A DNA stretch of 22,441 bases from Betaproteobacteria bacterium (GTDB lineage: Bacteria > Pseudomonadota > Gammaproteobacteria > Burkholderiales > SG8-39). Numbering within the stretch: position 1 is the first letter of the stretch; each line of letters starts with the position of its first letter. Below are positions 3,426 through 19,025 of this stretch, piece by piece. Location: the NCBI GenBank assembly GCA_029865405.1, contig JAOUGZ010000007.1, positions 1-22,441 of the forward strand, given 5' to 3'. The position numbers and the translations under genes are program-made. Below the pieces are notes generated by a model, which saw nothing but the letters and a program-made list of their open reading frames with translations, was not told where the DNA came from and ran no database searches.

Positions 3426-3794
3426 TCACTGCACCAACTCCAGCGACGCGGAGTACGTAATCGAGTCCCCGTTCGCATGGGCAAAATTCACTTCGATCAG
3501 CGGTGGCATGACGTCATTCGCGACCAGGTTCGCCGCGGCGGTGAGGGCCGGGCCGACTTTCAGGACCGTGGTGGCCACACCGGTGAGGGCCACGCTGGCG
3601 AGGACGTCGGACTTCTTTCCCGACACCCGATCCACGGCCCGGATCGTGGCAACGACACTTGGCGCCGTCACGATGCCGGTCACGTCGATGACGAGTCGAC
3701 CATATTTCCCGTGCGGGTTGCGAATTTGGGCCGCCCATGACGCCGTGCGCGCCAAGGACTCCGCCACTTTAACTGTATCGTTCAGATTGCTCAC
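3426..3794 (-). CDS. Small beta-sandwich phage structural protein
   Basis: The protein has 122 residues and begins with GTG at 3794, with AAGGGGA just upstream and no better start nearby. The pattern is distinctive: SLARTASWAAQ, then VIDVTGIVTAPSVVATI, VDRVSGKK, VLASVALTG and TVLKVGPALTAAANLVANDV, ending SITYSASLEL. I recognise this as a widespread small phage and prophage protein of immunoglobulin-like beta composition, usually encoded near capsid genes and left as hypothetical. It is the first gene after a TTGACA/GATTAT promoter, with a short 5' leader of about 30 bases. A capsid decoration role is plausible but is inferred only from context. Confidence 0.8.
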   Translation of the reverse strand: MSNLNDTVKVAESLARTASWAAQIRNPHGKYGRLVIDVTGIVTAPSVVATIRAVDRVSGKKSDVLASVALTGVATTVLKVGPALTAAANLVANDVMPPLIEVNFAHANGDSITYSASLELVQ

Positions 3795-3858: not shown

Positions 3859-4361
3859 ACGATCCGACCCAAGATCTTGAGTGCATCCTCGTCGCTGATC
3901 GGGCGTTTGGACAGCGGGTCGAGCTCGATTTCTGCGGCGGCCGTCAATAGTATGTGCACTTCGACGATCACGTCCCGCCTGGTCGAGACGTCCGCATTCG
4001 ACCCAACGCCGAGCGGAATCTCGTCGAGAGTCAACGCTTCAAGATTCGCCGTGACGGCAGAACCAACCTCAGGGAAACCAATGACCGCTTGTTGGTGCGC
4101 CTCGATGCCGGAGTAAACGGATAGCGCCAATCCCAGCCCGATTACCGCTGGCGCCTCTATGTAGGTCGGCGCCGGCGGCTCCGGGATCGGGATCGGTGGC
4201 TGGACGACAACTTCGGGCTCGCGCCGATTTGGGATGAACTCTGGTCGGTAGCCGCGCCCGCGGCGGTGCGGGCGCCCGATCGGGGTTTCCTGCTCGACCG
4301 CGGGCCCCTGCTGGTAAGCAGGAAGCGGCTGGAACGCCCCGACTTGGAAACCGCCGATCAT
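3855..4361 (-). CDS. Hypothetical phage protein with Pro-rich N-terminal half
   Basis: The protein has 168 residues. The ATG overlaps the methyltransferase stop (ATGA), with AAGGGCAA before it. Residues 1-65 are low-complexity, rich in Pro, Gln and Arg, and include PIPIPEPPAP. Residues 68-168 look folded, with alternating hydrophobic strands (VIGLGLALSVYSG, RRDVIVEVHILLTAAAEIEL) and the C-terminal end SDEDALKILGRIV. No motif or family is recognised. Similar Pro-rich-plus-beta proteins occur among virion accessory genes. Its tight coupling to the methyltransferase could reflect co-expression only. Confidence 0.65.
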   Translation of the reverse strand: MIGGFQVGAFQPLPAYQQGPAVEQETPIGRPHRRGRGYRPEFIPNRREPEVVVQPPIPIPEPPAPTYIEAPAVIGLGLALSVYSGIEAHQQAVIGFPEVGSAVTANLEALTLDEIPLGVGSNADVSTRRDVIVEVHILLTAAAEIELDPLSKRPISDEDALKILGRIV

Positions 4362-4939
4362 TTGCCCTTCTTGGCCTCGATCTTGGTGAAGGTGGCGATC
4401 GTGTCCTGCGCCGCCTCCTTGTTGAACTTGAGCGCCTCCTGCTGGTACTCAGGGTTGCGCTGCTGGATTTCAGGGTGCAGGTTGTAGCCCCAGCCCACGG
4501 CGAAGTCGCACTCGTACTTGTCGTTGTGCGGCGCGTTCGCCGCGCGCCACGGCTTGGACAGGTAGTAGAACCAGAACTCGCTGACCGGCGGCCATTGGTG
4601 CGTGAGATCACCGTACGCGCGCCCGCTCGCCCAGTGCGGCACGATCACCAAGCACTTCCCGTCAGGGATGAGCACGCGGTAGAGCTCGTTCACGAAGTGA
4701 ATGCGCTGCTCGCCGGTCAGGTGCTCGATGAAATGCGAGCAATGCGCCTCCTCCACCGACCCGTTCTTCCACGGCCAGGGCTTGGTCAGATCGACGATGT
4801 GCTTCTGCCCGAAGTCCCGAGCGTCCACGCCCTCGAATCCCTCACGCGGCGTTTTGCCGCAGCCGAAGTCCAGCTTCAACAGCTTGTGGGTCTTGACTAC
4901 CTTCTTCTTCTTCAACGTCCGTCGTTGCTTCCGATTCAT
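4358..4939 (-). CDS. Class I SAM-dependent methyltransferase
   Basis: The protein has 193 residues and starts at the ATG ending at 4939 behind a very strong AGGAGGAGA site. The longer frame to 5191 is antisense to the glycosyltransferase-like gene. A Lys/Arg-rich N-terminus (residues 3-18) precedes motif I, LLKLDFGCG (D24, G26, G28), which is the SAM-binding loop. It is followed by GVDARD (D39, the usual acidic residue after beta 2) and then HCSHFIEHL and VNELYRVLIPDGKCLVIVPH, the motif IV/V region of Methyltransf_11-type enzymes. The substrate is unknown, as there is no NPPY or DPPY motif of a DNA amino-methyltransferase. Placed between a glycosyltransferase-like gene and structural genes, it may modify a glycan or virion protein. 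That is inference. Confidence 0.85.
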   Translation of the reverse strand: MNRKQRRTLKKKKVVKTHKLLKLDFGCGKTPREGFEGVDARDFGQKHIVDLTKPWPWKNGSVEEAHCSHFIEHLTGEQRIHFVNELYRVLIPDGKCLVIVPHWASGRAYGDLTHQWPPVSEFWFYYLSKPWRAANAPHNDKYECDFAVGWGYNLHPEIQQRNPEYQQEALKFNKEAAQDTIATFTKIEAKKGK

Positions 4940-4959: not shown

Positions 4960-5694
4960 TTAATACATCTTGTCGGGCGGGCCGTACTCGCCTTTCCAGT
5001 CGTAGTGCCCGACCCTCACGGAGCAATCGACAGCACAGCGATAGCCGTACTTTCGCGCATCGCTCCAGAAATAGAGATCCTGCGTGGCCACGCCACCGTG
5101 ACGCTGCGTCACGAACCATGGTTTGCGCAATCTCCCGTCCTTGAACATCTTCATTCGGAACAGGCTGAACCCCATGCCGGTGCCGCAACATTCCTGCAGC
5201 CCGCCGGTCGGGATCTGAGGCATGTAGTTCTGCGGGATCTTCGGATCACCCCAGATCTGCGCTACGCCCTGCGGTCCTTTGGTGAAGTACAGGCCGCCGA
5301 TGCAGGCGAATTCCGGGTGCGCCTCCATTTGCGCGATCAAGTTGATGAGGCCGTCCGGCGGCGGGGCGTTGTCGTGCTCGAGAGTAAGCATGAATTCCCA
5401 GTTTTTCAGCTCCGGGTGTGCGAGCACTGCCTCTACCGCGCTTGAATATGCGATCCCTACCTCCTCGCCCAACGTGACGATCTTAGCCACGCCGTTGTTC
5501 GGGGCAAACGCGAGATTCCAGTACGACAGCATCACCTTCGCCGGGATCGCCTCGCTCATCGGGACGACGACTACAACACGCTGCCTCTTCCACGATGCGC
5601 CCTTGATCAGGCGGGATCGTGTCGCGGCGAGATTGGCGGAATGCTCACCGCCGAAGTCCTGCATGATGATTTGCGGTTTATTTTCCTTATCCAT
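4960..5694 (-). CDS. Glycosyltransferase-like protein (GT-A/family 2 type)
   Basis: The protein has 244 residues, and the start lies within GGAGGAGGAGGATGG, an unusually strong ribosome site. After a 36-residue lead, VVVVVPMSEAIPAKVMLSYWNLAF resembles the first nucleotide-binding strand of GT-A enzymes. FMLTLEHDNAPP (residues 101-112) resembles the region around the metal-binding DxD, here E-H-D. FACIGGLYFTKG and GGVATQDLYFWSDARKYGYR match the later strands and the ED-like acceptor motif. The protein is short but complete for phage versions of this fold. Such proteins in phages decorate DNA, virion proteins or host surface sugars, and the sequence does not say which. It overlaps the preceding 66-residue gene by 8 bases and is followed by a methyltransferase. 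Confidence 0.75.
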   Translation of the reverse strand: MDKENKPQIIMQDFGGEHSANLAATRSRLIKGASWKRQRVVVVVPMSEAIPAKVMLSYWNLAFAPNNGVAKIVTLGEEVGIAYSSAVEAVLAHPELKNWEFMLTLEHDNAPPPDGLINLIAQMEAHPEFACIGGLYFTKGPQGVAQIWGDPKIPQNYMPQIPTGGLQECCGTGMGFSLFRMKMFKDGRLRKPWFVTQRHGGVATQDLYFWSDARKYGYRCAVDCSVRVGHYDWKGEYGPPDKMY

Positions 5695-5887
5695 CCTCCT
5701 CCTCCTGCTGTTCGGTCATTGTCGGCGGAGAGCGCTGCGGATCTTTCAGTGCTGCCGCATCCAGGTTGTAGACAGGGCCAAAGGCGACCGCCTGGCGTAT
5801 GGCAATTTCAATGCTCACTCGTGCCCTGTAGAGTTTTGCCGTGCCAGTCGCGATTAAGTCACCACCCACCACCAGCTTGCGACTCAC
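5687..5887 (-). CDS. Small hypothetical protein
   Basis: The protein has 66 residues. It starts at GTG (5887-5885), which overlaps the stop of the upstream exported-protein gene as GTGA, and it ends 8 bases inside the next gene. The same frame stays open back to 6124, but that part is antisense or out of frame with the exported protein. The N-terminal 45 residues look structured (KLVVGGDLIATGTAKLY, VSIEIAIRQAVAFG), and the C-terminal tail is acidic with a Gln/Glu run. That run arises because its codons double as the strong ribosome site of the glycosyltransferase-like gene. Function is unknown. Confidence rests on the overlap pattern at both ends. Confidence 0.55.
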   Translation of the reverse strand: MSRKLVVGGDLIATGTAKLYRARVSIEIAIRQAVAFGPVYNLDAAALKDPQRSPPTMTEQQEEEDG

Positions 5888-7633: not shown

Positions 7634-10489
7634 TTACCAGACGCTCCAGTTGCGCAGATCGACCCACAAGTTGGCGAGCGTGGCGCTGTTCCCCGCTTGC
7701 CCCGTCAGGTCGCTGAACGCGATGGAAGCGCGCGTCACGCTGGTGGAGAAGATGCCGAGCCCAACCATCGCGCCGCGCGTGTTGGTCGTGGCCGCGCCGA
7801 ACGGATCAAGCCCGGCCATGGCTGATGCGAGGCTGGGCAGTACAGCCATCGAGAGCGACTTGGCGAGGCTGATCTGGCCGCTGGTCGTGGTCCTGACATG
7901 CACCGCCATCCAGTACTCGTCGGGCACGAGCGTGGTCGCGCTCGCGAAGTTCACGGTCAGCGCGCGCGCGCCGAACATGCTGGCGGTGGAGTTGCTCTGG
8001 TGGAAGCCGCTGAACGTGTTAGAGCCGGAGTTGACCGACGAGAGGGTCGAGCCGTTCCTCGTGTAGAGCACCATCGAGATAGACACCATGAAACCAGCGC
8101 TCGAAGTGTTCGTCGTCGTCGCCCCGCCGATCGACATGCCGAAGCGCGCGTTGCTGATAGCGAGGTTGCCACCGATGTTGAACGGGAAGATGCTGGCCGA
8201 CGTGTTGTGCTGCGTGCTGCCAGCCTGCGTCATGATCGGCAAGCGGATCCAGCGGTCTACCGGCGCGCCACCACCGCCGGCCGCGACGCTAAAGCCAATC
8301 GTCGATCCTGTCGTGCCGATCGTGATGTTCGTGATCGCCGAAAGACTCGAGGTCGCGGGCGCGGAAATCACAATCTGGCTGCCGTTCGTCCCCGAGAGCG
8401 TGAGGTTCAGTCCCGACAGGCCGATGGTCGAGCCGCTCGCGGTCGTGTTGCCGGCCGTGTTCGCGCCGAGCAGGTGATGCCAGTTGTTCTCCGCCGCTGC
8501 GCCCGGCGCGTTTGCCGAGAGGCTGAGCGTGAAGCCGGCGCTGTTCGATGCGGTCGTGCCGCTCAGGTTGGTCAGGTTGAGCGTCGGGTTGCCGTGCGAG
8601 TGATCGCTCGCGGCGTAATTCGTGTTGACCGAGAAGCCGATCGTGTTGAGCGCGCCGGCCGCGGTGCTCTGGTTCAGCGTGACCCCGTTCTGGCCCTGCA
8701 GCACGAAGCGCCCGACGTCCACGCGAGTATTGCCGCCGGTGTTGCCGAGGGTCGACACGCCGAACGAGAACACGCCGGGGTGCACATGGTCGTCTGCCGC
8801 GAAGCGCGACGTGTTCGTCCCGGATCCGCTGGCCGAGCCCACCGCCTGAATCGCGTTCGATACCACCGGCACGCTGTAGCTGCCCTGCACCGCGCCGCCC
8901 ACGTTGGAGAAGGTGAAGCCGTTGGCGTTGTTGAACGAGAGTGTCTGGAACGCGCTCGATCCGCCCGCTGCTGAGAATGCTTGGTTCGACTGGCTGGTCA
9001 GGCCATTGTGGCTCGCCACGATCTGGCTGCCGGTCGTCGTCTGGAATGAAACGCCATTCGAGTTGAGAAAGCCCAGCGTCTGGAATGTGAAGCTCCCGTT
9101 CGCCGCGCTCGCCGCCTGATTGCTCTGGCTGGTAAGCCCGTTGTGCGATGCCGTGACGGTCGATCCGTTCAGCCCGAAGCTCACGCCGTTGGCATTGTTG
9201 AACTCGAATTTCGACAGGTTCTGGCTCGTCGTCCCAGCGCTCACGTTGATGTTCGTGATCCCGCCTCCGCCGGATGGCACGGAAACGATGAGCGCACCGT
9301 TCGACCAGCCCATGGAGGCCACACCCATGCCGCTGACGGAGAAGCTGCGTGCATCGAACGTGCTGCTCGAGGACTGCCCGACCGTGTTTCCGAGGGCATA
9401 GCCGCCCAAGGTCTGGTTCGTCTGCGAGGTAATGCCGTTGTGGCTGGCGGTGACGGTGTTGCCGTCGACACCAAAGCTGATGCCGTTCAGGTTTCCGAAA
9501 ACGGCAGCGCCGGAAGTGAACTGCGTCGTCCCCGCAGAGATCGCCTGAATCCCGAACTCGCCGCGAGCGCCAGCGACCAAGACGAGCAGTTTGCCTTGCG
9601 TGGCGTGGGCGTTTATGACGATGGCGACGCGCTGACGCAGGTTCGGATAGGCCGGCTCGGTTGCCGTGAGATCCCCGGCTGTGACCGCTGATACCCACAG
9701 TCGATCGCCCTCGGTGAATGAGGAAGTATCAAGTCCGTCGGCAACGCCGCCGACCATCACCCGGCCAAAGCCGTTGTTGGAGATCGCATCCACCGTCACG
9801 CCGATGGCGGGCATGGTGCTGCCGGCATCCGCCTTGGCCGGAGAGATATTCGGCGTCTGCCCGGTCGAGCCCGTGACGTACACCGCCTTGCCGGCCGCTA
9901 TTGCGCCACCCGAGGTATTGCGCGCAATGATGAACTGGTCTTGCGCATGCGTAATCTGCGAGCCGTCTGGCGTGACCATACCAAGGCGCGTCTTGCCTTG
10001 TTCGTTGAAGCCATAGAGGATAATGCGCCCGGCGCTCGCGGCCGGAACGCCCGCCGTACCGATCGATATGGCGTTGTTGCCGAAGTCCTGCACCGCGTTC
10101 GGGATGATGTTGCCCGAATGACCCGCGCTGTCGTGCACCGGTAGGGCGGTGAGGCCGTTGTGGCTGCCGGTGATTACCGACCCATTCAGCCCAAAGCTGA
10201 TCCCGTTCAGGTTGTCGAACGTGAGGCGCGAGAGGTTCTGGCTGGTCGTGCCGGCCGAGACGTTGATGTTGGTGATGCCACCGCCGCCAGCGGGCGCGGC
10301 GGCCGTGATCTTGCCATCGGTGTCCAGCCCGAAGCTGACGCCGCCGTCGTTCTTGAACGCGCCGATTACCTCGGAGCCAACGACCGTCAGGCTTACCGGG
10401 TGGCTGTCATTCCAGTGCGACGGACGGAGCTCGTATAGCGGATCATCCGGCGTCGTCGCTACGAGGTTGTGGTATGCAATGCCCGGCAT
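7634..10489 (-). CDS. Large repetitive tail fibre or tailspike-type protein
   Basis: The protein has 951 residues, with GGGGGAG before the ATG. The N-terminal 60 residues (LRPSHWNDSHPV) resemble virion-attachment segments of phage fibres. A diverged unit, roughly NxNGxSFGLNGSxxxASHNGLTSQxNQ, occurs at about residues 93-114, 333-359, 431-459, 476-503 and, degenerate, 520-540. The stretch GGGGITNINVSAGTTSQNLS occurs twice (residues 68 and 407). Residues 185-310 form a separate folded module (GGAIAAGKAVYVTG, DGLDTSSFTEGDRLWV). DDHVHPG (566-572) and SDHSHGN (628-634) are HxH turns like metal-binding sites in fibres. Residues 745-951 form a Ser/Thr/Ala-rich beta head likely to bind the receptor. 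No hydrolase motif is seen. Unusually, the gene lies between portal and scaffold. Confidence 0.85.
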   Translation of the reverse strand: MPGIAYHNLVATTPDDPLYELRPSHWNDSHPVSLTVVGSEVIGAFKNDGGVSFGLDTDGKITAAAPAGGGGITNINVSAGTTSQNLSRLTFDNLNGISFGLNGSVITGSHNGLTALPVHDSAGHSGNIIPNAVQDFGNNAISIGTAGVPAASAGRIILYGFNEQGKTRLGMVTPDGSQITHAQDQFIIARNTSGGAIAAGKAVYVTGSTGQTPNISPAKADAGSTMPAIGVTVDAISNNGFGRVMVGGVADGLDTSSFTEGDRLWVSAVTAGDLTATEPAYPNLRQRVAIVINAHATQGKLLVLVAGARGEFGIQAISAGTTQFTSGAAVFGNLNGISFGVDGNTVTASHNGITSQTNQTLGGYALGNTVGQSSSSTFDARSFSVSGMGVASMGWSNGALIVSVPSGGGGITNINVSAGTTSQNLSKFEFNNANGVSFGLNGSTVTASHNGLTSQSNQAASAANGSFTFQTLGFLNSNGVSFQTTTGSQIVASHNGLTSQSNQAFSAAGGSSAFQTLSFNNANGFTFSNVGGAVQGSYSVPVVSNAIQAVGSASGSGTNTSRFAADDHVHPGVFSFGVSTLGNTGGNTRVDVGRFVLQGQNGVTLNQSTAAGALNTIGFSVNTNYAASDHSHGNPTLNLTNLSGTTASNSAGFTLSLSANAPGAAAENNWHHLLGANTAGNTTASGSTIGLSGLNLTLSGTNGSQIVISAPATSSLSAITNITIGTTGSTIGFSVAAGGGGAPVDRWIRLPIMTQAGSTQHNTSASIFPFNIGGNLAISNARFGMSIGGATTTNTSSAGFMVSISMVLYTRNGSTLSSVNSGSNTFSGFHQSNSTASMFGARALTVNFASATTLVPDEYWMAVHVRTTTSGQISLAKSLSMAVLPSLASAMAGLDPFGAATTNTRGAMVGLGIFSTSVTRASIAFSDLTGQAGNSATLANLWVDLRNWSVW

Positions 10490-10882: not shown

Positions 10883-13072
10883 TCAAAGCTCCTCGGCCAT
10901 CATTTCACCGTCCGGGCTGCGCCACATCTTGAAGCGACGCGGCGGCGGGGTAATCGGCATACCGCTGATCACCATGCCGCCATCCCGGTAGCCCTGCGTC
11001 TGCTCGCGCACGCGCGTGCCCTGCGGCGGATTCCCAGCGACGTCCTGATTCTCCGGACCTTCGGGCGTGCCGCCACCGGCGCCACGACCAGGCTCCTCGG
11101 CCGCATTGGGCCCGGTTTTGCCGAGCAGCTGGGCGGGCGGCGGCATCGTCGCCATGGCGAGCTCGAGCTCCATTTCGGTCGGCAAGATCTTCTCGACCGG
11201 GAATTCGGCCGCTCTGAGCGCCGGGCGCAGCATTTCCATGCGCCCGCGCGGGCCGATGATCTGCGCATCCAGCGGGTTGAGGGTCGCCTGCAGCATTTCC
11301 TTCTGCCGCAGGGCGATCTGGTCCTTGATGAGCATCGCCACACTGCCGCGCGCCACCGGGCGGAGGTCGAACTTGATCGCCGGGTCTGGGTGATACTCCA
11401 TGTTGTAGTCGAAGGTGCGGGCGACGCACTCCTCGATCACGTAGAGATCCACGTTCGCCACCACGCGGCGCACGCCCTTGCCCAGGTTGCTCATCAGCTG
11501 CGACAGGCCGCTCGACGTGCGCGCGGCGCCGCTCGCCTTGCTGTCGCCGGTGGAGTACTTCGGGAACCCGCTCTCGTTGTCCGCCTCCGACGAGAAGTGC
11601 TGGTAGATCATCAGCAATTCCTGCACGTGCATCTGCGGCTGGGAGAAGCGAATCGCGGATTGGTTGTTGCCTGTGAGGTCGGTGGTCGTCTGCCACAACT
11701 TCCACGGGAACATCTTCGTCACCGGCTCGCCATCGGCCAGCCGATCGACGGTGACTTCGACTTGCGGGCCGCTCGCGATCGCCGCGTTGTTCGAGATTGA
11801 ACGCGCGGCGGCGTTGCACATCGCCTGGCTATCCTTGATCACGTCGGGCAGGCCCAAGCCCCAGAATGCGCCCGCGATGTTCTCGAACGATGCCTTGCTG
11901 TAGGGCTTCTTGCCGAGCGGGTTGGGATTGACCTGGGCCTTGATCACGAACCGGCCGACCTTCCACGCCTCTATCTTGTACTCCCGATGCGGCTCGATTT
12001 CGGTGTCGGACTCTACCCTGTTCTGGTAGTGCCACTCCAGCAGCCTGTGCCCCGGACACGAGCCCCAGTAGTCCAGCGCCTCGATGGTGCCCTCGGGGTC
12101 GTACTCCTCGTTGCGGCGCAATTCCAGAATCGCGCGCTGGTGGTCGTTCATCTGGCGCGATGTGTAGCCGCGCTCTCCGTAGGCTTCCAACACCTGCGTG
12201 ATTGCGTCATCGGAATAACCGGGGACGCCGAGCAACTCCTGAAGATGCTCTCGCGTGAAATGGTGCCGGTCGATCAGGCTGCCGTACTGGATATTGCGCA
12301 TCGCCGGCGCCGGGAAGATGTCGAAGGGGCTGCGCCGCTCGTAGCAGGGGGCGACGGCATCTTCGACCACCGCATTCCACTGGCCGCCAGGCCCCGGGCG
12401 CCACTTCAGCGTTTTCTTCATGCGCATCACCGGCCCCTTGATGAAGGCGGCGGGGAAGGTGATCAGATCGTAGATGAACTCGTCCAGGGCGGTTTTCCAA
12501 CCGCCCTCGGCGAATTGGTCGGCGATCACCAACTCGTGGCGTTCCGCGACCTTGAGCGAGAGGCTCATCATGCGCTTGTAGGCGAGCGTCTTGATCGTGA
12601 GCAACCGCTCGCTGACCTGGCTGTCGTCCACTTCCCAGCCTGCGGCCATCGCTTCCAGCACGACGGCATTGACGATGGCCTGCTGCACCGCAGGCGGCAG
12701 ATCCGGGATCGGCGTTGGCTCCAGCCCCCAAGGCCTCTCGACCTCGCTCATCAGGATCTCGCGTAGCCACGACTCGGCGCCGCGGCACTTCGCGCTGGTG
12801 AGCATCATGAAGATTTCGCTGCCGCCCTGCTGGCGGATCAGCGCAAGATCGGTGGGCTCGTAGACTCCGGTGCGCTGGCGCAGCGCGCGCAGCATGGTGT
12901 CTTCGATGCTGCGCTTTGCGTGCTGTGCGGCCTGCCAGAAGCGCTCGATGTGGCCGGCGATGCCCTGCAGGAACATGTCCTGCGATTGCTGTTCTCGCTG
13001 CGCGGCGAAGCGAGCTTCCTGATTGGCGTTGATCTGCTGGTTGCTGACGACGCGAAGGCCGATGGCGGGCAT
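10883..13072 (-). CDS. Portal protein, P22-like size class
   Basis: The protein has 729 residues, close to the 725 of P22 gp1. It forms the dodecameric ring at the capsid vertex through which DNA is packaged. The N-terminal helices (ERFWQAAQHAKRSIEDTMLRA), the wing and crown body with FPAAFIKGPVMRMKK and SPFDIFPAPAMRNIQYG, a stem-like LPDVIKDSQAMCNAAARSISNN and the C-terminal helical region SGLSQLMSNLGKGVRRVVANVD all match large podovirus portals. The last 80 residues are Pro/Gly-rich and disordered and carry QGYRDGGMV. The ATG follows the previous stop directly (TAAATG) with GAGGG upstream. The gene sits after TerL and two small genes, as expected for a packaging module. Confidence 0.92.
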   Translation of the reverse strand: MPAIGLRVVSNQQINANQEARFAAQREQQSQDMFLQGIAGHIERFWQAAQHAKRSIEDTMLRALRQRTGVYEPTDLALIRQQGGSEIFMMLTSAKCRGAESWLREILMSEVERPWGLEPTPIPDLPPAVQQAIVNAVVLEAMAAGWEVDDSQVSERLLTIKTLAYKRMMSLSLKVAERHELVIADQFAEGGWKTALDEFIYDLITFPAAFIKGPVMRMKKTLKWRPGPGGQWNAVVEDAVAPCYERRSPFDIFPAPAMRNIQYGSLIDRHHFTREHLQELLGVPGYSDDAITQVLEAYGERGYTSRQMNDHQRAILELRRNEEYDPEGTIEALDYWGSCPGHRLLEWHYQNRVESDTEIEPHREYKIEAWKVGRFVIKAQVNPNPLGKKPYSKASFENIAGAFWGLGLPDVIKDSQAMCNAAARSISNNAAIASGPQVEVTVDRLADGEPVTKMFPWKLWQTTTDLTGNNQSAIRFSQPQMHVQELLMIYQHFSSEADNESGFPKYSTGDSKASGAARTSSGLSQLMSNLGKGVRRVVANVDLYVIEECVARTFDYNMEYHPDPAIKFDLRPVARGSVAMLIKDQIALRQKEMLQATLNPLDAQIIGPRGRMEMLRPALRAAEFPVEKILPTEMELELAMATMPPPAQLLGKTGPNAAEEPGRGAGGGTPEGPENQDVAGNPPQGTRVREQTQGYRDGGMVISGMPITPPPRRFKMWRSPDGEMMAEEL

Positions 13073-13297
13073 TTACCCTCGAACGAACCGGTTGAGCTTG
13101 TCGTTGATCTGGACCGGTTTACGGTCGCTCTTTGGTGGAATGTCGGCTTTGATCGCGTCACGCACACTGCGCTCAGCTGCCGGTGTAGCACGCGGCCCGG
13201 GATTGTCCTGCAACTCGTTCGTTTCGATCTTCCCGCCGTCGCGATAGCCGGATGGCCGTTTCGACTTGCGCGCCATCTTGCGCTGGTGATTGTTCAT
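13073..13297 (-). CDS. Small basic protein sharing its N-terminus with the upstream metalloprotease-like gene
   Basis: The protein has 74 residues. The ATG overlaps the upstream stop (ATGA), and GAGAG lies before it. The first 18 residues, MNNHQRKMARKSKRPSGY, nearly repeat residues 33-50 of the upstream product (VNDHQRKMARKSREPSGY). The following RDGGKIE resembles the portal tail motif GYRDGGMV. The remainder is charged and probably disordered (Pro- and Lys-rich) and ends NRFVRG. No family is recognised. The shared basic segment suggests a common binding partner or DNA/RNA contact, or a recent partial gene duplication. It ends immediately before the portal ATG. Confidence 0.65.
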   Translation of the reverse strand: MNNHQRKMARKSKRPSGYRDGGKIETNELQDNPGPRATPAAERSVRDAIKADIPPKSDRKPVQINDKLNRFVRG

Positions 13298-13872
13298 CGC
13301 TGTCTCTCGAGAATTGAGGGCAGCGGCGCTCCCAGGCTGTGGCCGTAGCCGGGATGGTCGTACCCCATCACGTGCATCTTTTCATGTTGGTGCACTTCGT
13401 CGTAGTTGCGCGCGTTGGATCGCATGACCACGTTGCAGTTGCGTGCCGGCTTGTCGCAAACGGTGTAGCCCTGCACTCCCTCGCCGCCCGGGATGCCCTT
13501 GTCGACGCTCTTCGTGTCGTAGCGCGTGGCGCCTTCCCACGTGCGCTTCCAGTACTCGGGCGAGCGTTTCAGCGCGGCGTCGATGTGGTCTTGTTGCAAA
13601 AGCGGCTCGGTGTCGGGCACCGTTTCCATCTGCGGCTTCCCGAACCGCCAGCTGTCGTATTGCGCGGGATCCTGCGCCGCGCGCTGGCCGGCGTCGGCCA
13701 GTTGCAGATACGCATCCGGGTGATAGCCCGATGGCTCCCTCGACTTGCGTGCCATTTTTCTCTGGTGGTCGTTCACATCACTCCCGCGAACGGCTGAAAC
13801 GCCGACAGCGTATCCGCTCATCCCCACGGCCGCAAGCGAGAGCAGGACCGCCGCCTTGCAGAAGGCGTTCAT
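13294..13872 (-). CDS. Small zinc-metalloprotease-like protein with HExxHxxGxxH motif
   Basis: From the ATG at 13872 the product has 192 residues. It has a hydrophobic N-terminus (residues 5-28, CKAAVLLSLAAVGMSGYAVG) resembling a signal peptide or anchor. From the GTG at 13776, which has a better ribosome site (GGGAG, 4-5 bases away), it has 160 residues and lacks that segment. Residues 163-173 read HEKMHVMGYDH, an exact match to the metzincin zinc-binding pattern, with H163, H167 and H173 as candidate ligands and E164 as the catalytic base. Two cysteines (C139, C146) precede it. A Met-turn beyond the motif is not obvious, since only 19 residues follow. The protein is therefore much smaller than known metzincins and may be a minimal peptidase or a coincidental match. 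It lies between TerL and portal. Confidence 0.7.
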   Translation of the reverse strand: MNAFCKAAVLLSLAAVGMSGYAVGVSAVRGSDVNDHQRKMARKSREPSGYHPDAYLQLADAGQRAAQDPAQYDSWRFGKPQMETVPDTEPLLQQDHIDAALKRSPEYWKRTWEGATRYDTKSVDKGIPGGEGVQGYTVCDKPARNCNVVMRSNARNYDEVHQHEKMHVMGYDHPGYGHSLGAPLPSILERQR

Positions 13873-13883
13873 CCGGTCAACGG

Positions 13884-15437
13884 TTAGGTCGCGAAATTGC
13901 TGCCGAGCACGGTACGCGCCCGGGTGTTCCCATGACCGACAACCCCAGCCGACATGGCGCCCGTCATGAGGGCGGACGAGCAGTGGGAATGCTCGTCGTG
14001 CCGGGGCTCGGACATGTAGCTTTGCAGGTTCTCGTTCCACTCAAAGCGGAAGTTCTCCAGGTGGGCGATGCCGACGTCGCAGTTTTCCTCGTCGAAGTAG
14101 CACATCGGGATCAGGTTGCGGCCGGCCTCGATCTGGTCGGACACGTCCCACTGCTTGCCCACGATGAAGTTCAGGCCCGCGGCTTTGGCCTGCATAACGC
14201 GCGATTTCTTCGTGAACAGGTCGCGGACTTCGAGGTCGTGCGGCCCGATGTGGTGCCGGTAGTGCCACTTGCGCTCCGTCTTGAGGTCGGCGAGCAGCCG
14301 GATATGCCACTCCAGCGATTGATTCTCGATCTCGTGGTAGTAGATAAATCGAAACTGCATCCCGAGTTGCTGCACGAACCAAATCGCCATCTTGTCGCGC
14401 AGGCCCAAGTCCCACCAGGTGTCGACCGACAGCCCGGGGTCGAATGGCACCTTGGTGATCCGATTCTCCTCGCGTGCCTTGGCCATCTGCGTGCCAAAGA
14501 TGGCGCCGCGAATCACCGCTTCAAACGGCTCCCTGTCCGTGCTGGGGTACTCGCGGAACATCAGATCGCCGTTCCATTCCTTTTTCTTCACGTACCACGC
14601 GCGCTGACCCAGATCGAGCGTTGTCCCGGTCATGCGCTCGACCTTGGTGAAGTAGGCGGTGTGCTCGCGCGTGAACACGACGTGGCGCGCCTCATCCAGC
14701 GGCAGCCGGTATTTCTTGTTCAGCCACCACGGATAGAAGTGCAGCTTGAAGTCCATTTTGGTGAGCGGCTTGCCCATGCGCTGCGCGTTCTGGGTCTTCG
14801 TCACGAGCTCGTGGAACTTGCCGCCTTTGCCGTAGCCCGTCGACTCGACGAAGATGTAGTTGCCCGGGTGCACCGTATTGAACGAGCCAGTCTGAATCTC
14901 CTCGGCCTTCTCCGGGTACTTGTGGGAAATGATGCCGTACTCGGACACGTGCAGGTAGGACAGCGTGCCCGCGCGCATCGACGTGCCCACGCTGATTTCG
15001 CTCTTGTTGGCGAACACCAATTCCTGCGCGCTGTCGTTGGTCGCCGGGTTCGCGGCGCGGATCGCCTCGGGCAGTCGATCGTAGGGATACTTGATCTTGC
15101 GCCGGAAGATCTTGCGCACGTCGTCCAGGGTGTGCGCGATGATGCCGCCCACCTGACCCGGGTGCCAAATGCACTCGTCGAGGATGAACAGGTCGATGAA
15201 CGTGGTGAAGCCGTGCTGGCGACCCTTCAAAATCACGTTCAAGTACCACATGTCGTTCCAGAACTTCACCTGCATGTCGTTCGGGACGAACTTAACTTCC
15301 AGATTCAGCTCGTCGAGAATGTAGTACAGGTTCGCCATGCGCCATTTCTTGTCGGCGAATTGGTCGACGACCTCGATGTCGATCGCCGACTGCGGCGCGA
15401 CCGGCTCAGATTGCTCGGCGGGCGGGTCGAAGGCCAT
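13884..15437 (-). CDS. terL: Terminase large subunit (TerL), packaging ATPase and nuclease
   Basis: The protein has 517 residues, a normal length for TerL, which drives DNA into the prohead and cuts the concatemer. The ATPase half has a Walker A-like KGRQHGFTT (residues 71-79), a Walker B/catalytic position YLHVSEYG (E166) and the coupling motif VESTGYG (198-203). The RNase H-like nuclease half has WWDLGLRD (D343) and IGPHDLEVRD, a motif seen in many TerL proteins. It ends with HDEHSHCSSALMTG (480-493), where most TerL proteins carry an Asp (SHxxDAL) in place of S487 or S488. The ATG overlaps the previous stop by one base (TGATG). The small subunit lies 6.4 kb away, unlike the usual adjacent pair. 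Confidence 0.93.
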   Translation of the reverse strand: MAFDPPAEQSEPVAPQSAIDIEVVDQFADKKWRMANLYYILDELNLEVKFVPNDMQVKFWNDMWYLNVILKGRQHGFTTFIDLFILDECIWHPGQVGGIIAHTLDDVRKIFRRKIKYPYDRLPEAIRAANPATNDSAQELVFANKSEISVGTSMRAGTLSYLHVSEYGIISHKYPEKAEEIQTGSFNTVHPGNYIFVESTGYGKGGKFHELVTKTQNAQRMGKPLTKMDFKLHFYPWWLNKKYRLPLDEARHVVFTREHTAYFTKVERMTGTTLDLGQRAWYVKKKEWNGDLMFREYPSTDREPFEAVIRGAIFGTQMAKAREENRITKVPFDPGLSVDTWWDLGLRDKMAIWFVQQLGMQFRFIYYHEIENQSLEWHIRLLADLKTERKWHYRHHIGPHDLEVRDLFTKKSRVMQAKAAGLNFIVGKQWDVSDQIEAGRNLIPMCYFDEENCDVGIAHLENFRFEWNENLQSYMSEPRHDEHSHCSSALMTGAMSAGVVGHGNTRARTVLGSNFAT

Positions 15438-15696: not shown

Positions 15697-16014
15697 CTAC
15701 TCACGCGGCGGCCAGCACCACGACCCCTGGACGTATGACCCTGGAACGCTCGGAGTTTCGCTGAACGGGACGGACGTGACCCACAACACGTCATTGCCGT
15801 CGAGATACACCTGGCCATTGACCACGTTGTCGGACCACACTTGCACGATCATCATCGGCAGAACGTCGCCCGCGCCGGTCGCGTTGCCGACGTGCGCCTG
15901 CGCGCCGCCTGGCCAAGCCGCGTCCTGCGTTCGCGCGACCCGCCGTCGATTGATGGCCCTCGAGTCCTGATCGGAGAGCGTGTAGTGGACGATCCTGCCT
16001 TTCGTTGCGTTCAT
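15697..16014 (-). CDS. Conserved small phage protein (VVHYxL...VWSD type)
   Basis: The protein has 105 residues, with AAAGGA about 10 bases before the ATG. The signature RIVHYTLSDQ at the start, then MMIVQVWSDNVVNGQVYLDG, VLWVTSVPFSE and a terminal GSWCWPPRE, is one I recognise from many small phage and prophage proteins of unknown function. The compact strand-rich layout suggests an SH3-like or OB-like barrel, which is inference. It lies among small genes just before TerL. Confidence 0.75.
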   Translation of the reverse strand: MNATKGRIVHYTLSDQDSRAINRRRVARTQDAAWPGGAQAHVGNATGAGDVLPMMIVQVWSDNVVNGQVYLDGNDVLWVTSVPFSETPSVPGSYVQGSWCWPPRE

Positions 16015-16756: not shown

Positions 16757-17275
16757 CTATTCGAACCCTTCGAGTTTCACGTCGCGATGCTCGCGCGCGC
16801 GCTGGCTTGGCTTGGTGAGCTCGGGCAGCTTTGGCCAGAAATGTTTCGGATCCAGCCCCGACTTGAGAATGTGCGCCGCCATCGCGTCCGCCCAGGCTTT
16901 ATAGCGCAACAGTTGAATCGGCCATTTGTGCATCGGGAATCCGTACCACTGATAGAAGGCCCCTTGGCTGATGCCCGAGAATTCGAGGAATTGCGCGATG
17001 GTCATGTTGTTGACCTTGATCAGGCCGTATAGCTCGCTCATGGGGGCGAACTCGTGGCGGCGCTTTTGCTGCGCCGGCCCCATGTTTTTTTTCGTCATCC
17101 TTGGATACCTCAATTTGGCTCGTTTGCGATGGTAGGCCAAGTGCCGCGCGCGCTTTCGCGTCTGCAGGACCGAGAGGAAACGCTCGAGGCTCACGCCCAC
17201 GTGGTCAGCGGTGCGCTGCGCGATCGCGCGGCGCTGCGGATGGGTAAACGGTCGCTTGGCGGCGCAGAAGTTCAT
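16757..17275 (-). CDS. HTH-like DNA-binding protein
   Basis: The protein has 172 residues. The ATG shares one base with the radical SAM stop (TGATG). A basic N-terminal region (residues 10-60, rich in Arg and Lys) is followed by a second region in which MTIAQFLEFSGISQGAFYQW (91-110) has the helix-turn-helix spacing: helix, Gly-containing turn (SGIS), then recognition helix. The C-terminal part is helical with a basic end. It could be a transcriptional regulator or a packaging or replication DNA-binding factor. It does not look like the classical small terminase. An internal ATG at residue 60 has AAGG directly adjacent and is a poorer start. Confidence 0.6.
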   Translation of the reverse strand: MNFCAAKRPFTHPQRRAIAQRTADHVGVSLERFLSVLQTRKRARHLAYHRKRAKLRYPRMTKKNMGPAQQKRRHEFAPMSELYGLIKVNNMTIAQFLEFSGISQGAFYQWYGFPMHKWPIQLLRYKAWADAMAAHILKSGLDPKHFWPKLPELTKPSQRAREHRDVKLEGFE

Positions 17276-18189
17276 CAAACGAATAACCCTTGCTGTTCGT
17301 CATAGATTTCAGCCGGCCTGTTGCCGCGATAGTAGCGGTCGTAGTCTTCGAATGGCCCGCGTTTCCAGATGAATCCATTCGCCCAGCGCGCCACGTCCTT
17401 GAGTTTTTGGACCGTCCAATCGTAGCGCGCGACCGGTTCGCGTTCGAGCGCGTTGAGTTTTAGATACGGCTGCACGTGGGGCTCGCAGCCAGCGTCGAGC
17501 ACTTCTTGAATGCGCGCCATGCACTCGGCATAAGGTTCATTTCCAACCAGCACGTAGACCCGCTTCCGTTTCTGTGGCTCCTCGGCCAGCATCTTCATCA
17601 CCTGGCGCACTTGCGGCCCTTCCTTCGTTTCGTCGAAGGCGAAGCGCCACGGGCCACCGCCAGAATTGAGCAGTGGTCGCCAGCGCCGATAGACCTCCTC
17701 GGTGAACGTGATCGGCTCGAATCCAGAGTTGGCGTCGATGAGCTTCACACCCTCGGCCTGGTAGCGCCGAATAATATGCTCCTGATATTCCGCAGGAAGG
17801 GCGCTCAGGTTGTTGTCGCAGAGAATCGGCCGCACCGGGAAATCAGGAATCAGCGTGAACTCGCGCCCTTCCATCGCGGGCACGATACAGAACCAGCACC
17901 CAACCGGGCAACCCCGCGAGGCGAAGGTGGCGAGAGGGTTGTGCTTGAAGATTGCGTCCGGGTAGTCCTGCCTGATTTCTGCCACGTCCGCGAGAATGTG
18001 CTGCATCTTGATGAGGAACAACGCGGGGCCACCAGCGACCACCCTTTTCCCGCAAGCGCGCGCGAATAAGGCGCGGCTGTACGCCTCGTCGAGCTTGTAG
18101 GTGAAAACGATCGACAGATACTTCACGTCGCCGTCGTCCCATTCCGCCAGCCCACCAATCCATTTACCGACCTCTTGTCTTTTACTCAC
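17275..18189 (-). CDS. Radical SAM enzyme
   Basis: The protein has 304 residues and begins with GTG overlapping the preceding stop (GTGA). A longer frame to 18372 is out of frame with the upstream gene. RGCPVGCWFC gives C94-x3-C98-x2-C101, the canonical cluster that holds the 4Fe-4S used to cleave SAM. Before it, VKYLSIVFTY and GKRVVAGGPAL resemble the Rossmann-type, B12-binding-like N-terminal domain of many radical SAM proteins, but the cobalamin DxHxxG motif is absent. After it, LSALPAEYQEHIIRRY, GVKLIDANSGFEP, WRFAFDETKEG and KRVYVLVGN follow a TIM-barrel order. The substrate is unknown. A tRNA, nucleotide or peptide modification is possible, and the sequence does not choose between them. 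Confidence 0.88.
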   Translation of the reverse strand: MSKRQEVGKWIGGLAEWDDGDVKYLSIVFTYKLDEAYSRALFARACGKRVVAGGPALFLIKMQHILADVAEIRQDYPDAIFKHNPLATFASRGCPVGCWFCIVPAMEGREFTLIPDFPVRPILCDNNLSALPAEYQEHIIRRYQAEGVKLIDANSGFEPITFTEEVYRRWRPLLNSGGGPWRFAFDETKEGPQVRQVMKMLAEEPQKRKRVYVLVGNEPYAECMARIQEVLDAGCEPHVQPYLKLNALEREPVARYDWTVQKLKDVARWANGFIWKRGPFEDYDRYYRGNRPAEIYDEQQGLFV

Positions 18190-18467
18190 CGCAGGATCCT
18201 GGTGGCGGCATGATCGGCGGCACGCCGCCCAATTTCCTCGGTGAGCTCTTCCAGGCAGGCTTTGCCCAAGTCCTTCATGATCCGCTCCACCGGCGCGTCG
18301 CCGCGCTTCGTGCGCACGCCGGCGAGGTAGTGTAAGCGGTCGCTCACTTTCAGGGATTTGACGTACCGACACTCACACTCGTGCCTATATTGCTCGGACC
18401 CGGTGTCGAACACGGGCGGCTTGGGCTCTGGTGGCGCGGCGTCGCGCGGCGGCGGATCGAACGGCAT
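18186..18467 (-). CDS. DUF7696-like small phage protein
   Basis: The protein has 93 residues, with GAGG before the ATG. After a Pro-rich lead (residues 1-20), FDTGSEQYRHECECRYVKSL followed by a helix and YLAGVRTKRGDAPVERIMKDL matches my memory of a widespread phage family (ECxxRxV followed by RxxYLxxVxxxRG). I use the DUF7696 name with caution. Function is unknown. It lies between the protease-like and radical SAM genes and is coupled to the latter by a GTGA overlap. Confidence 0.65.
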   Translation of the reverse strand: MPFDPPPRDAAPPEPKPPVFDTGSEQYRHECECRYVKSLKVSDRLHYLAGVRTKRGDAPVERIMKDLGKACLEELTEEIGRRAADHAATRILR

Positions 18468-18470
18468 CGG

Positions 18471-19025
18471 CTACCTCGTTTCACGTGGAACGGAATCGTT
18501 GACGAGCATCAAATCCGCCAACACATCGACCGGAATCCCGGTCATGAGCCGGGCGTACTCGTTGGCTGCGAACTCACGGCTTTCCTCGCCAGAGCTCCAG
18601 GCCTCGTCGTGGATCCCAAGAAAGTACCGTCCCGTGTTTGCGGCGACTGTCGCGACCACGCTGGTGTGCCCCATGCGGTGGTGGCCGAGCTCGTGCCCGA
18701 CCACGAAGAGCAGCTGGATCAGCGAGCCGGTTTTCAGGAAGATCCGGTCGACCACGATCACGTTGATGAACGGCGTCAGCTGCATGGCGTAGCCAAGGAT
18801 TCGACGCCCTTGGTGGTTGCGCTTGGCATCATCGAGCATCAGCAACACCCGAGGCACCCGCGAGCGCGTGATCAGGTCGCGCACCGCGTAGGGCATGGGG
18901 TCGAACAACTCGGCGCGGCGCAGCGACCACATCGGCCCGAAGAACATCAGCGTCAGGACCATCGTCAGCCATGGCACAAGGAGCGCCACGAGCAGCGCAT
19001 ACAGGAAGAATTCGATGTAGATCAT
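18471..19025 (-). CDS. Membrane-anchored M48-like zinc metalloprotease
   Basis: The protein has 184 residues, with an ATGA overlap to the replication-accessory gene upstream. Residues 3-30 are one long hydrophobic segment, likely a membrane anchor. HELGHHRMGH (111-120) gives the HExxH zinc motif (H111, H115, catalytic E112). EESREFAANEYARL (147-160) supplies a candidate third ligand, E151, in an ExxAN pattern close to the ExxAD of M48 and HtpX-type gluzincins. INVIVVDRIFLKTG before the motif matches the edge strand and entry helix that precede it in M48 enzymes. It is shorter than most M48 proteins (about 280 or more residues), so this is a minimal domain. A role in envelope proteolysis, superinfection exclusion or lysis is inference. 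Confidence 0.85.
   Translation of the reverse strand: MIYIEFFLYALLVALLVPWLTMVLTLMFFGPMWSLRRAELFDPMPYAVRDLITRSRVPRVLLMLDDAKRNHQGRRILGYAMQLTPFINVIVVDRIFLKTGSLIQLLFVVGHELGHHRMGHTSVVATVAANTGRYFLGIHDEAWSSGEESREFAANEYARLMTGIPVDVLADLMLVNDSVPRETR

Follow-up and report, generated by a model that had tools for sequence, protein, structure and literature searches.

A putative phage mini-zincin encoded between the large terminase subunit and portal genes

Gene order and start of the HExxH open reading frame

The DNA analysed here, hereafter the window, is a stretch of 22,441 nucleotides from contig JAOUGZ010000007.1 of an assembly assigned to a Betaproteobacteria bacterium (GCA_029865405.1). On its minus strand, a small open reading frame (ORF) encoding an HExxH zinc motif lies between the genes for TerL, the large terminase subunit, and the portal protein (Table 1). 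The original prediction, made from the sequence alone, had sited it there, and the minus-strand order of TerL, HExxH ORF, a 74-residue ORF and portal agrees, with the 74-residue ORF also intervening. We call the latter the DGG gene after its YxDGG motif. The portal-like protein scored 23.1 bits against SU10_portal, under the cut-off of 30. GC content at the third codon position is 0.81 in the short form of the HExxH ORF, resembling both TerL (0.88) and the portal gene (0.87). The nearest virus record (G001) is, by BLAST, identical at 3480 of 3480 bases around the gene.

The first ~18 codons read from the GTG at 13776 copy the start of the DGG gene in a 54-base direct repeat that is 80% identical and has a spacing of 479. 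At the level of sequence, the front end of the HExxH ORF is a duplicate of the DGG gene start. Counterparts of the DGG gene lie between TerL and portal in three related records, at 2698-2982 in L001, 5976-6239 in L005 and 3250-3735 in L011, and have homologous ATG or GTG starts. The string MNxHQRKMARK is invariant in all 5 sequences, the fusion included, and the fusion conforms to the start pattern MN[NDE]HQRKMARK[ST]. YxDGG is absent from the fusion, where SGYHPDAY stands in its place. The C-terminus of the window portal protein also has YRDGGM. The duplication of the DGG start may offer a readable case of a late phage operon gaining a cargo gene through the translation start of a neighbour.

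The HExxH ORF has the two starts that had been predicted, an ATG at 13872, 11 bases beyond the TerL stop, and the GTG. The GTG was also expected to have the better ribosome site, which is confirmed by Shine-Dalgarno (SD) duplex energies of -6.9 kcal/mol at the GTG versus +0.4 at the ATG. In the three relatives, the DGG starts have energies of -10.2 to -11.4; in the window, the value is -3.0 for both the DGG gene and TerL, and +0.4 for the listed start of an M48-like gene elsewhere. Since that gene is also without an SD, a poor site alone is weak evidence against the ATG. In L005, the DGG gene is preceded by an intergenic leader that can be aligned to the window bases separating TerL from the GTG (score 22.5), and 1 of 1000 dinucleotide shuffles was as good. 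In-frame reading of this L005 leader reveals a stop close to the 5' end, and neither an ATG nor a signal-like run is present. The alignment works with L005 only: for the window leader against that of L001, 491 of 500 shuffles were as good, and for L005 against L001, 128 of 500. The HExxH reading frame stays open past the ATG into TerL, where a GTG at 14040 would give 248 residues, so the openness of the 96-base extension is by itself no evidence for its translation. A comparison of both starts in relatives had been proposed; it shows the GTG to be homologous to the DGG starts and the stretch behind the ATG to align with an intergenic leader. We judge the GTG to be the start and the long form a minor possibility, and the protein most likely acts inside the cell and is not exported.

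Table 1. Features of the terminase-portal region of the window
Feature	Position	Strand	Basis
TerL, large terminase subunit	13884..15437	-	phrog_2, E 4.6e-17
HExxH ORF, long form, 192 aa	13294..13872	-	ATG at 13872; ORF list
HExxH ORF, short form (160 aa), the most probable gene product	13294..13776	-	GTG at 13776; homology to DGG starts; SD -6.9
Upstream extension, 96 bases, hydrophobic, signal-peptide-like; probably untranslated leader	13777..13872	-	No SD at ATG; L005 leader alignment; shuffles
Motif HEKMHVMGYDH, short-form residues 131-141	13354..13386	-	Sequence; conserved in A3 and A5
Mini-zincin core as predicted (short-form residues 76-145), comprising three strands, the HExxH helix and the third His	13342..13551	-	AlphaFold
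Conserved Cys pair C107 and C114, on neighbouring predicted strands	13435..13458	-	Alignments A3 and A5
Duplicated start block in HExxH ORF, (V/M)NDHQRKMARKSREPSGY	13722..13776	-	54-base direct repeat
Matching start block in DGG gene, MNNHQRKMARKSKRPSGY	13243..13297	-	54-base direct repeat
DGG gene, 74 aa (MNxHQRKMARK..YxDGG)	13073..13297	-	Counterparts in L001, L005 and L011
Portal / head-tail connector protein	10883..13072	-	phrog_332 head-tail adaptor, E 1.4e-38; phrog_1216 portal protein, E 1.2e-6

Zinc motif, family and genomic context

The motif HEKMHVMGYDH occupies residues 163-173 when numbered in the long form. The extended pattern HExxHxxGxxH occurs once in the six frames of the window, where residue frequencies would give 0.0037 occurrences. 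For plain HExxH the count is 4 with 1.4 expected, so that only the extended motif is notable, and it is conservation among relatives that lifts it beyond chance. A search with the whole protein returned only the window's own protein, and one with residues 70-160 returned P0002, a protein of 116 residues (E 1.2e-10). P0002 was picked by similarity alone and has every constrained motif position. A motif scan of viral-contig DNA gave 6 loci, namely 2 small phage lipoproteins of the family (L014 and L015) and 4 serralysin-like metzincins (L012, L013, L016 and L017). A profile built from four sequences (the window protein, P0002, L014 and L015) gathered, at E <= 0.1, a set of 69 proteins that includes the one from the window. 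Alignment A5 holds these 69 rows, with the window protein replacing P0001, and alignment A3 holds the 21 rows of clade A (below), again with the window protein.

The Glu, second His, Gly and third His are each present in 69/69 rows of A5 and the first His in 68/69, with P0039 the sole row without it and all five together in 68/69, a conservation that is partly selection because 2 of the 4 seeds (L014 and L015) were themselves picked by motif. Each constrained position is kept in 21/21 rows of A3. C107 and C114 occur together in 21/21 rows of A3, and C114 in 69/69 rows of A5. The claim of an exact HExxHxxGxxH in a very small protein was correct, and the motif is a real, conserved one of zincin type. 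Variation at H163, E164 and H173 among homologs, which the original prediction had named as an argument against it, was not what we found, as the motif His and Glu residues are kept in A5.

Family members come mostly from metagenomes and phage contigs. A quick tree groups the window protein, on a long branch, with the 20 other proteins of clade A (support 0.97). These are stand-alone proteins of 108-128 residues starting MDY.. (MDYGDWRLGxPQ), in none of which was a signal peptide seen by eye. The other clade (48 rows) consists mostly of small lipoproteins; a crude regular expression picks up a lipobox-like pattern in 40 of them, and the remaining 8 are unclassified. The family comprises signal-less and lipoprotein clades, both seen in phage contigs. 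Two phage proteins of the lipoprotein clade have HERxHCAGYDHPG, one at 4051-4407 on the minus strand of L014 near DnaB-like and HTH genes, the other at 8033-8419 on the plus strand of L015 near an integrase; neither record had a TerL or portal match. A subgroup of this clade has a Met six residues past the third His.

Library searches with the window protein gave no match in Pfam (E <= 10), NCBIfam or PDB sequences and only chance-level matches in PHROGs. No hit was obtained by tblastn of the window protein, P0012, P0035 or the L014 protein against 50,697 phage records, or with P0035 against 72,556 plasmids, and the P0002 search returned only noise at E >= 4. The A3 profile matched no PDB sequence at E <= 10, and a scan of genome contigs with the A1 profile found no relative. 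An exact DNA scan of the same contigs for HExxHxxG[YWC][ND]HPG gave 2 loci (L018 and L019), each in a frame that is implausible, so under that pattern the family is rare or absent in the genome-contig collection. One further pattern match, L009, appears to be false, lying in another frame of an unrelated gene.

None of the 69 members has a precomputed Pfam domain. At E <= 1 they match 19 Pfam families weakly. The families matched by the most members are the U1 zinc finger (9/69, best E 0.017), matrixin M10 (8/69, best E 0.028) and YbeY (3/69, best E 0.14), and SprT-like is matched by one (1/69, E 0.0015). Among the PHROGs matches listed, which cover 25 of 36 families, are two of unknown function, phrog_27783 (9 members, best E 0.0013) and phrog_33198 (5 members, 0.016), as well as Cor superinfection exclusion (3 members, best 0.0054) and several Rz-like spanin families (best 0.00095). 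We read the spanin and Cor matches as signal-peptide similarity, while phrog_27783 and phrog_33198 could be true relatives. A literature search gave no paper recognisable as describing these proteins. Judged from sequence comparison, they make up what looks like a new small family, not matched to a named one.

A second motif scan of viral contigs gave 26 loci, comprising the phage contig L020 again (as L036), apparent noise (L045) and 24 larger proteins with HExxHxxGxDHP[ND] on phage or prophage contigs (L026-L035, L037-L044 and L046-L051). Most of the 24 have a downstream MCSP/MCAP or IMSY resembling Met-turns, and they are seemingly separate groups of phage-borne metzincins.

The genomic context suggests that the HExxH gene looks accessory and is not part of the packaging machine. 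The three relatives with both TerL and portal have no counterpart of this gene in the fragments examined, and the family profile found no member in the L001, L005, L006, L007 and L011 records, all of which are fragments. L006 and L007 cover TerL in part only and were left out of the gap comparison. Of the annotated portal matches the best is in Rhizobium phage RHph_TM3_14A, where TerL is on the opposite strand, so its gap is not comparable. The slot between TerL and the DGG gene is variable, since in L005 it holds a different gene of 92 residues, 52% identical over 91 aligned columns to the product of window positions 15697-16014 (minus strand). In the window this small gene is on the upstream side of TerL and its L005 counterpart (5603-5881) on the downstream side, so it has moved across TerL. 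The only clade-A context available beyond the window is that of P0012 on phage contig L020, whose portal has no match to the window portal. There the clade-A gene directly precedes spanin-like (phrog_739, E 3e-4), endolysin-like (phrog_894, E 3e-4) and holin (phrog_3427, E 4.4e-31) genes, a single case and too few to assign a lysis role. The original assignment of the HExxH gene to the packaging module is not supported, given its absence from the fragments of three relatives and the position of the other clade-A gene beside a lysis cassette.

Predicted fold and comparison with known zincins

AlphaFold modeled the short form (from 71 sequences) with strands at residues 85-91, 103-108 and 113-119, a helix at 125-136 and 19 residues past the third His. 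Confidence (pLDDT in 10-residue blocks) reached 84-97 across residues 81-140 and was lower on either side, at 77 (residues 71-80) and 60 (residues 141-150). The prediction for P0012 has the same order of elements and 11 residues past the third His. Unclustered histidines had been named as an outcome against the zincin assignment; as far as the helix assignment goes, the model places two His on one confident helix and the third just after it. Structure comparison of the predicted fold gave no significant match. Re-alignment with VIA-align, restricted to folds that Foldseek had already picked up, returned mostly zincins, including mini-zincins of ~110 residues, with MMP-11 at the top of both lists.

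The window protein has no Met beyond its motif. Within clade A, any Met after the motif is found in 4/21 rows (window included) at scattered positions (+10, +10, +11 and +16), and in the lipoprotein clade in 31/48 rows, at +6 in 19 of them, so that clade may have a Met-turn. In the PF06262 mini-zincins a C-terminal aromatic residue stands in for the Met-turn methionine; in clade A the third residue after the third His is Tyr in 13/21 rows and His in 6/21.

The mini-zincins of Trame and colleagues (Acel_2062 / TTHA0227; Pfam PF06262, Zincin_1, formerly DUF1025; called M94 in PMC3890501) are described as proteins of ~110 residues that have a sheet of three strands, Asp as the third ligand and little sequence past it, and that lack both a Met-turn and a signal peptide (PMC3890501). 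The window protein is predicted to share the three-stranded minimal scaffold with the motif near the C-terminus, the lack of a Met-turn and the short tail. Its family differs from PF06262 in having His as third ligand (69/69), the Cys pair, GYDHP and mostly metagenome or phage sources, and PF06262 is absent among the 19 Pfam families matched by the 69 members at E <= 1. With the metzincins (MEROPS MA(M); matrixins M10, astacins and serralysins) it shares the exact HExxHxxGxxH and the weak M10 matches, and the family profile matches the astacins 3vtg (E 0.9) and 3lqb (E 1). In contrast to metzincins, the protein is smaller and has no C-terminal subdomain, and a Met-turn is neither present in it nor conserved in clade A. 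The label "metzincin" given originally is not supported for a protein built like the Met-turn-less mini-zincins. On the features tested, the protein is metzincin-like by motif and mini-zincin-like by build, and is a shown member of neither group.

Phage elements are also tied to another HExxHxxGxxH protein, the metzincin Mtz (LMRG_00713) from Listeria monocytogenes, which is of phage origin (PMC8235301). Unlike the window protein, Mtz is described as carrying a Met-turn (AIMLD) and a Sec signal peptide, and the cleavage of its partner lipoprotein, Tim, depends on the catalytic Glu of Mtz (PMC8235301).

Function and alternatives, and other genes of the window

The explanation we favor, with modest confidence, is that the gene encodes a cytoplasmic mini-zincin of the phage, accessory, fused to the duplicated DGG start and translated from the GTG. 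A domain of the stand-alone clade-A type would have been inserted between TerL and the DGG gene, duplicating the DGG start; the repeat is observed, and the order of events is our reconstruction. The zincin would begin with the DGG block MNDHQRKMARKS and use the leader and ribosome site of the DGG gene. Translation from the GTG is well supported though not proven, and the product would probably remain in the cytoplasm, with expression expected to be late. In the mini-zincin fold predicted for the ~110-residue domain, a sheet of three strands is accompanied by the HExxH helix, and the third His follows the Gly by three residues. One zinc ion would be bound by H131, H135 and H141, and the invariance of E132 suggests that this residue activates water for peptide cleavage. 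By default, the substrate would be a host or late phage protein. If active, the protein would hold the metzincin ligand set without a Met-turn in ~110 residues, which bears on the minimal scaffold and on the need for the Met-turn.

A number of observations count against this explanation. The protein is very small, with 19 residues past the third ligand; its two conserved Cys could add stability; the U1 zinc finger is weakly matched by nine members; part of the motif's conservation in A5 stems from the choice of seeds by motif; and in another minimal zincin family no peptidase activity was seen (PMC3890501). The 96-base extension also has a hydrophobicity reached by only 161 of 10702 open shuffles (top 1.5%) and a V-S-A signal-peptidase-like site, and the protein database entry is the 192-residue form. 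Most of the points on the domain itself would suit a non-catalytic metal-binding protein, in which zinc supports the structure or the binding of a partner (e.g., a portal, lysis or host protein) without cleavage. We consider this rather unlikely, since the catalytic Glu is kept as strictly as the ligands (69/69), which structure alone does not require. The points on the extension suit the dual product of the original prediction, in which the ATG would give an exported form and the GTG an internal one. Going by its lipobox-like pattern (40/48), the sister clade is exported, and the ATG is close enough to the TerL stop for coupled initiation. Two products are nevertheless improbable, as the ATG has no SD, the stretch aligns with an L005 leader that has a stop and neither an ATG nor a signal-like run, no other clade-A member shows a signal peptide by eye, and the GTG is common to the DGG family. 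The segment does resemble a signal peptide in its hydrophobicity and V-S-A; the leader alignment and the clade-A starts speak against its being used as one.

YbeY is an endoribonuclease. YbeY (UPF0054) resembles the HExxH family in its HxxxHxxGYDH spacing and small size, and the GYDH motif and three His could form an RNase site instead of a peptidase site. Among PDB sequences, the family profile matches YbeY TM1509 best (E 0.36), with HERAHCAGYDH aligned to HGILHLAGYDH, and Pfam YbeY is among the weak matches. However, the aligned YbeY has Gly where the family has its invariant Glu at motif position 2. M10 is matched by more members than YbeY and SprT-like at a better E, and zincin entries lead the VIA-align comparisons. 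A nuclease of this kind is even less probable than the dual product. Least probable of all is a virion enzyme, in which the duplicated MNDHQRKMARKS block would act as an address, directing the zinc peptidase to the site of the DGG protein (portal vertex or capsid), where it would serve in maturation or be injected into the host. The invariance of MNxHQRKMARK in the fusion as in the four DGG sequences, the adjacency of the DGG and portal genes in the window, L001, L005 and L011, and the YRDGGM of the portal C-terminus would agree with this. However, the fusion has lost the YxDGG part, there is no evidence for the DGG protein in virions, and after a recent insertion the block may persist merely as the carrier of a start site.

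A second metalloprotease-like gene lies at 18471-19025 on the minus strand, with HELGHHRMGH and a Pfam Peptidase_M48 score of 25.8 bits (cut-off 20.3). It has a homolog in L005 (1417-1980, 39%), and an ORF with HELGH adjoins TerL in L011 (938-1456). At 17275-18372 (minus strand), within the phage gene cluster, an ORF contains GCPVGCWFC (CxxxCxxC), a pattern that we take to resemble those of radical-SAM proteins. A long tail-fibre-like ORF of 951 residues at 7634-10489 (minus strand) has recurring segments of the NINVSAGTTSQNLS type.
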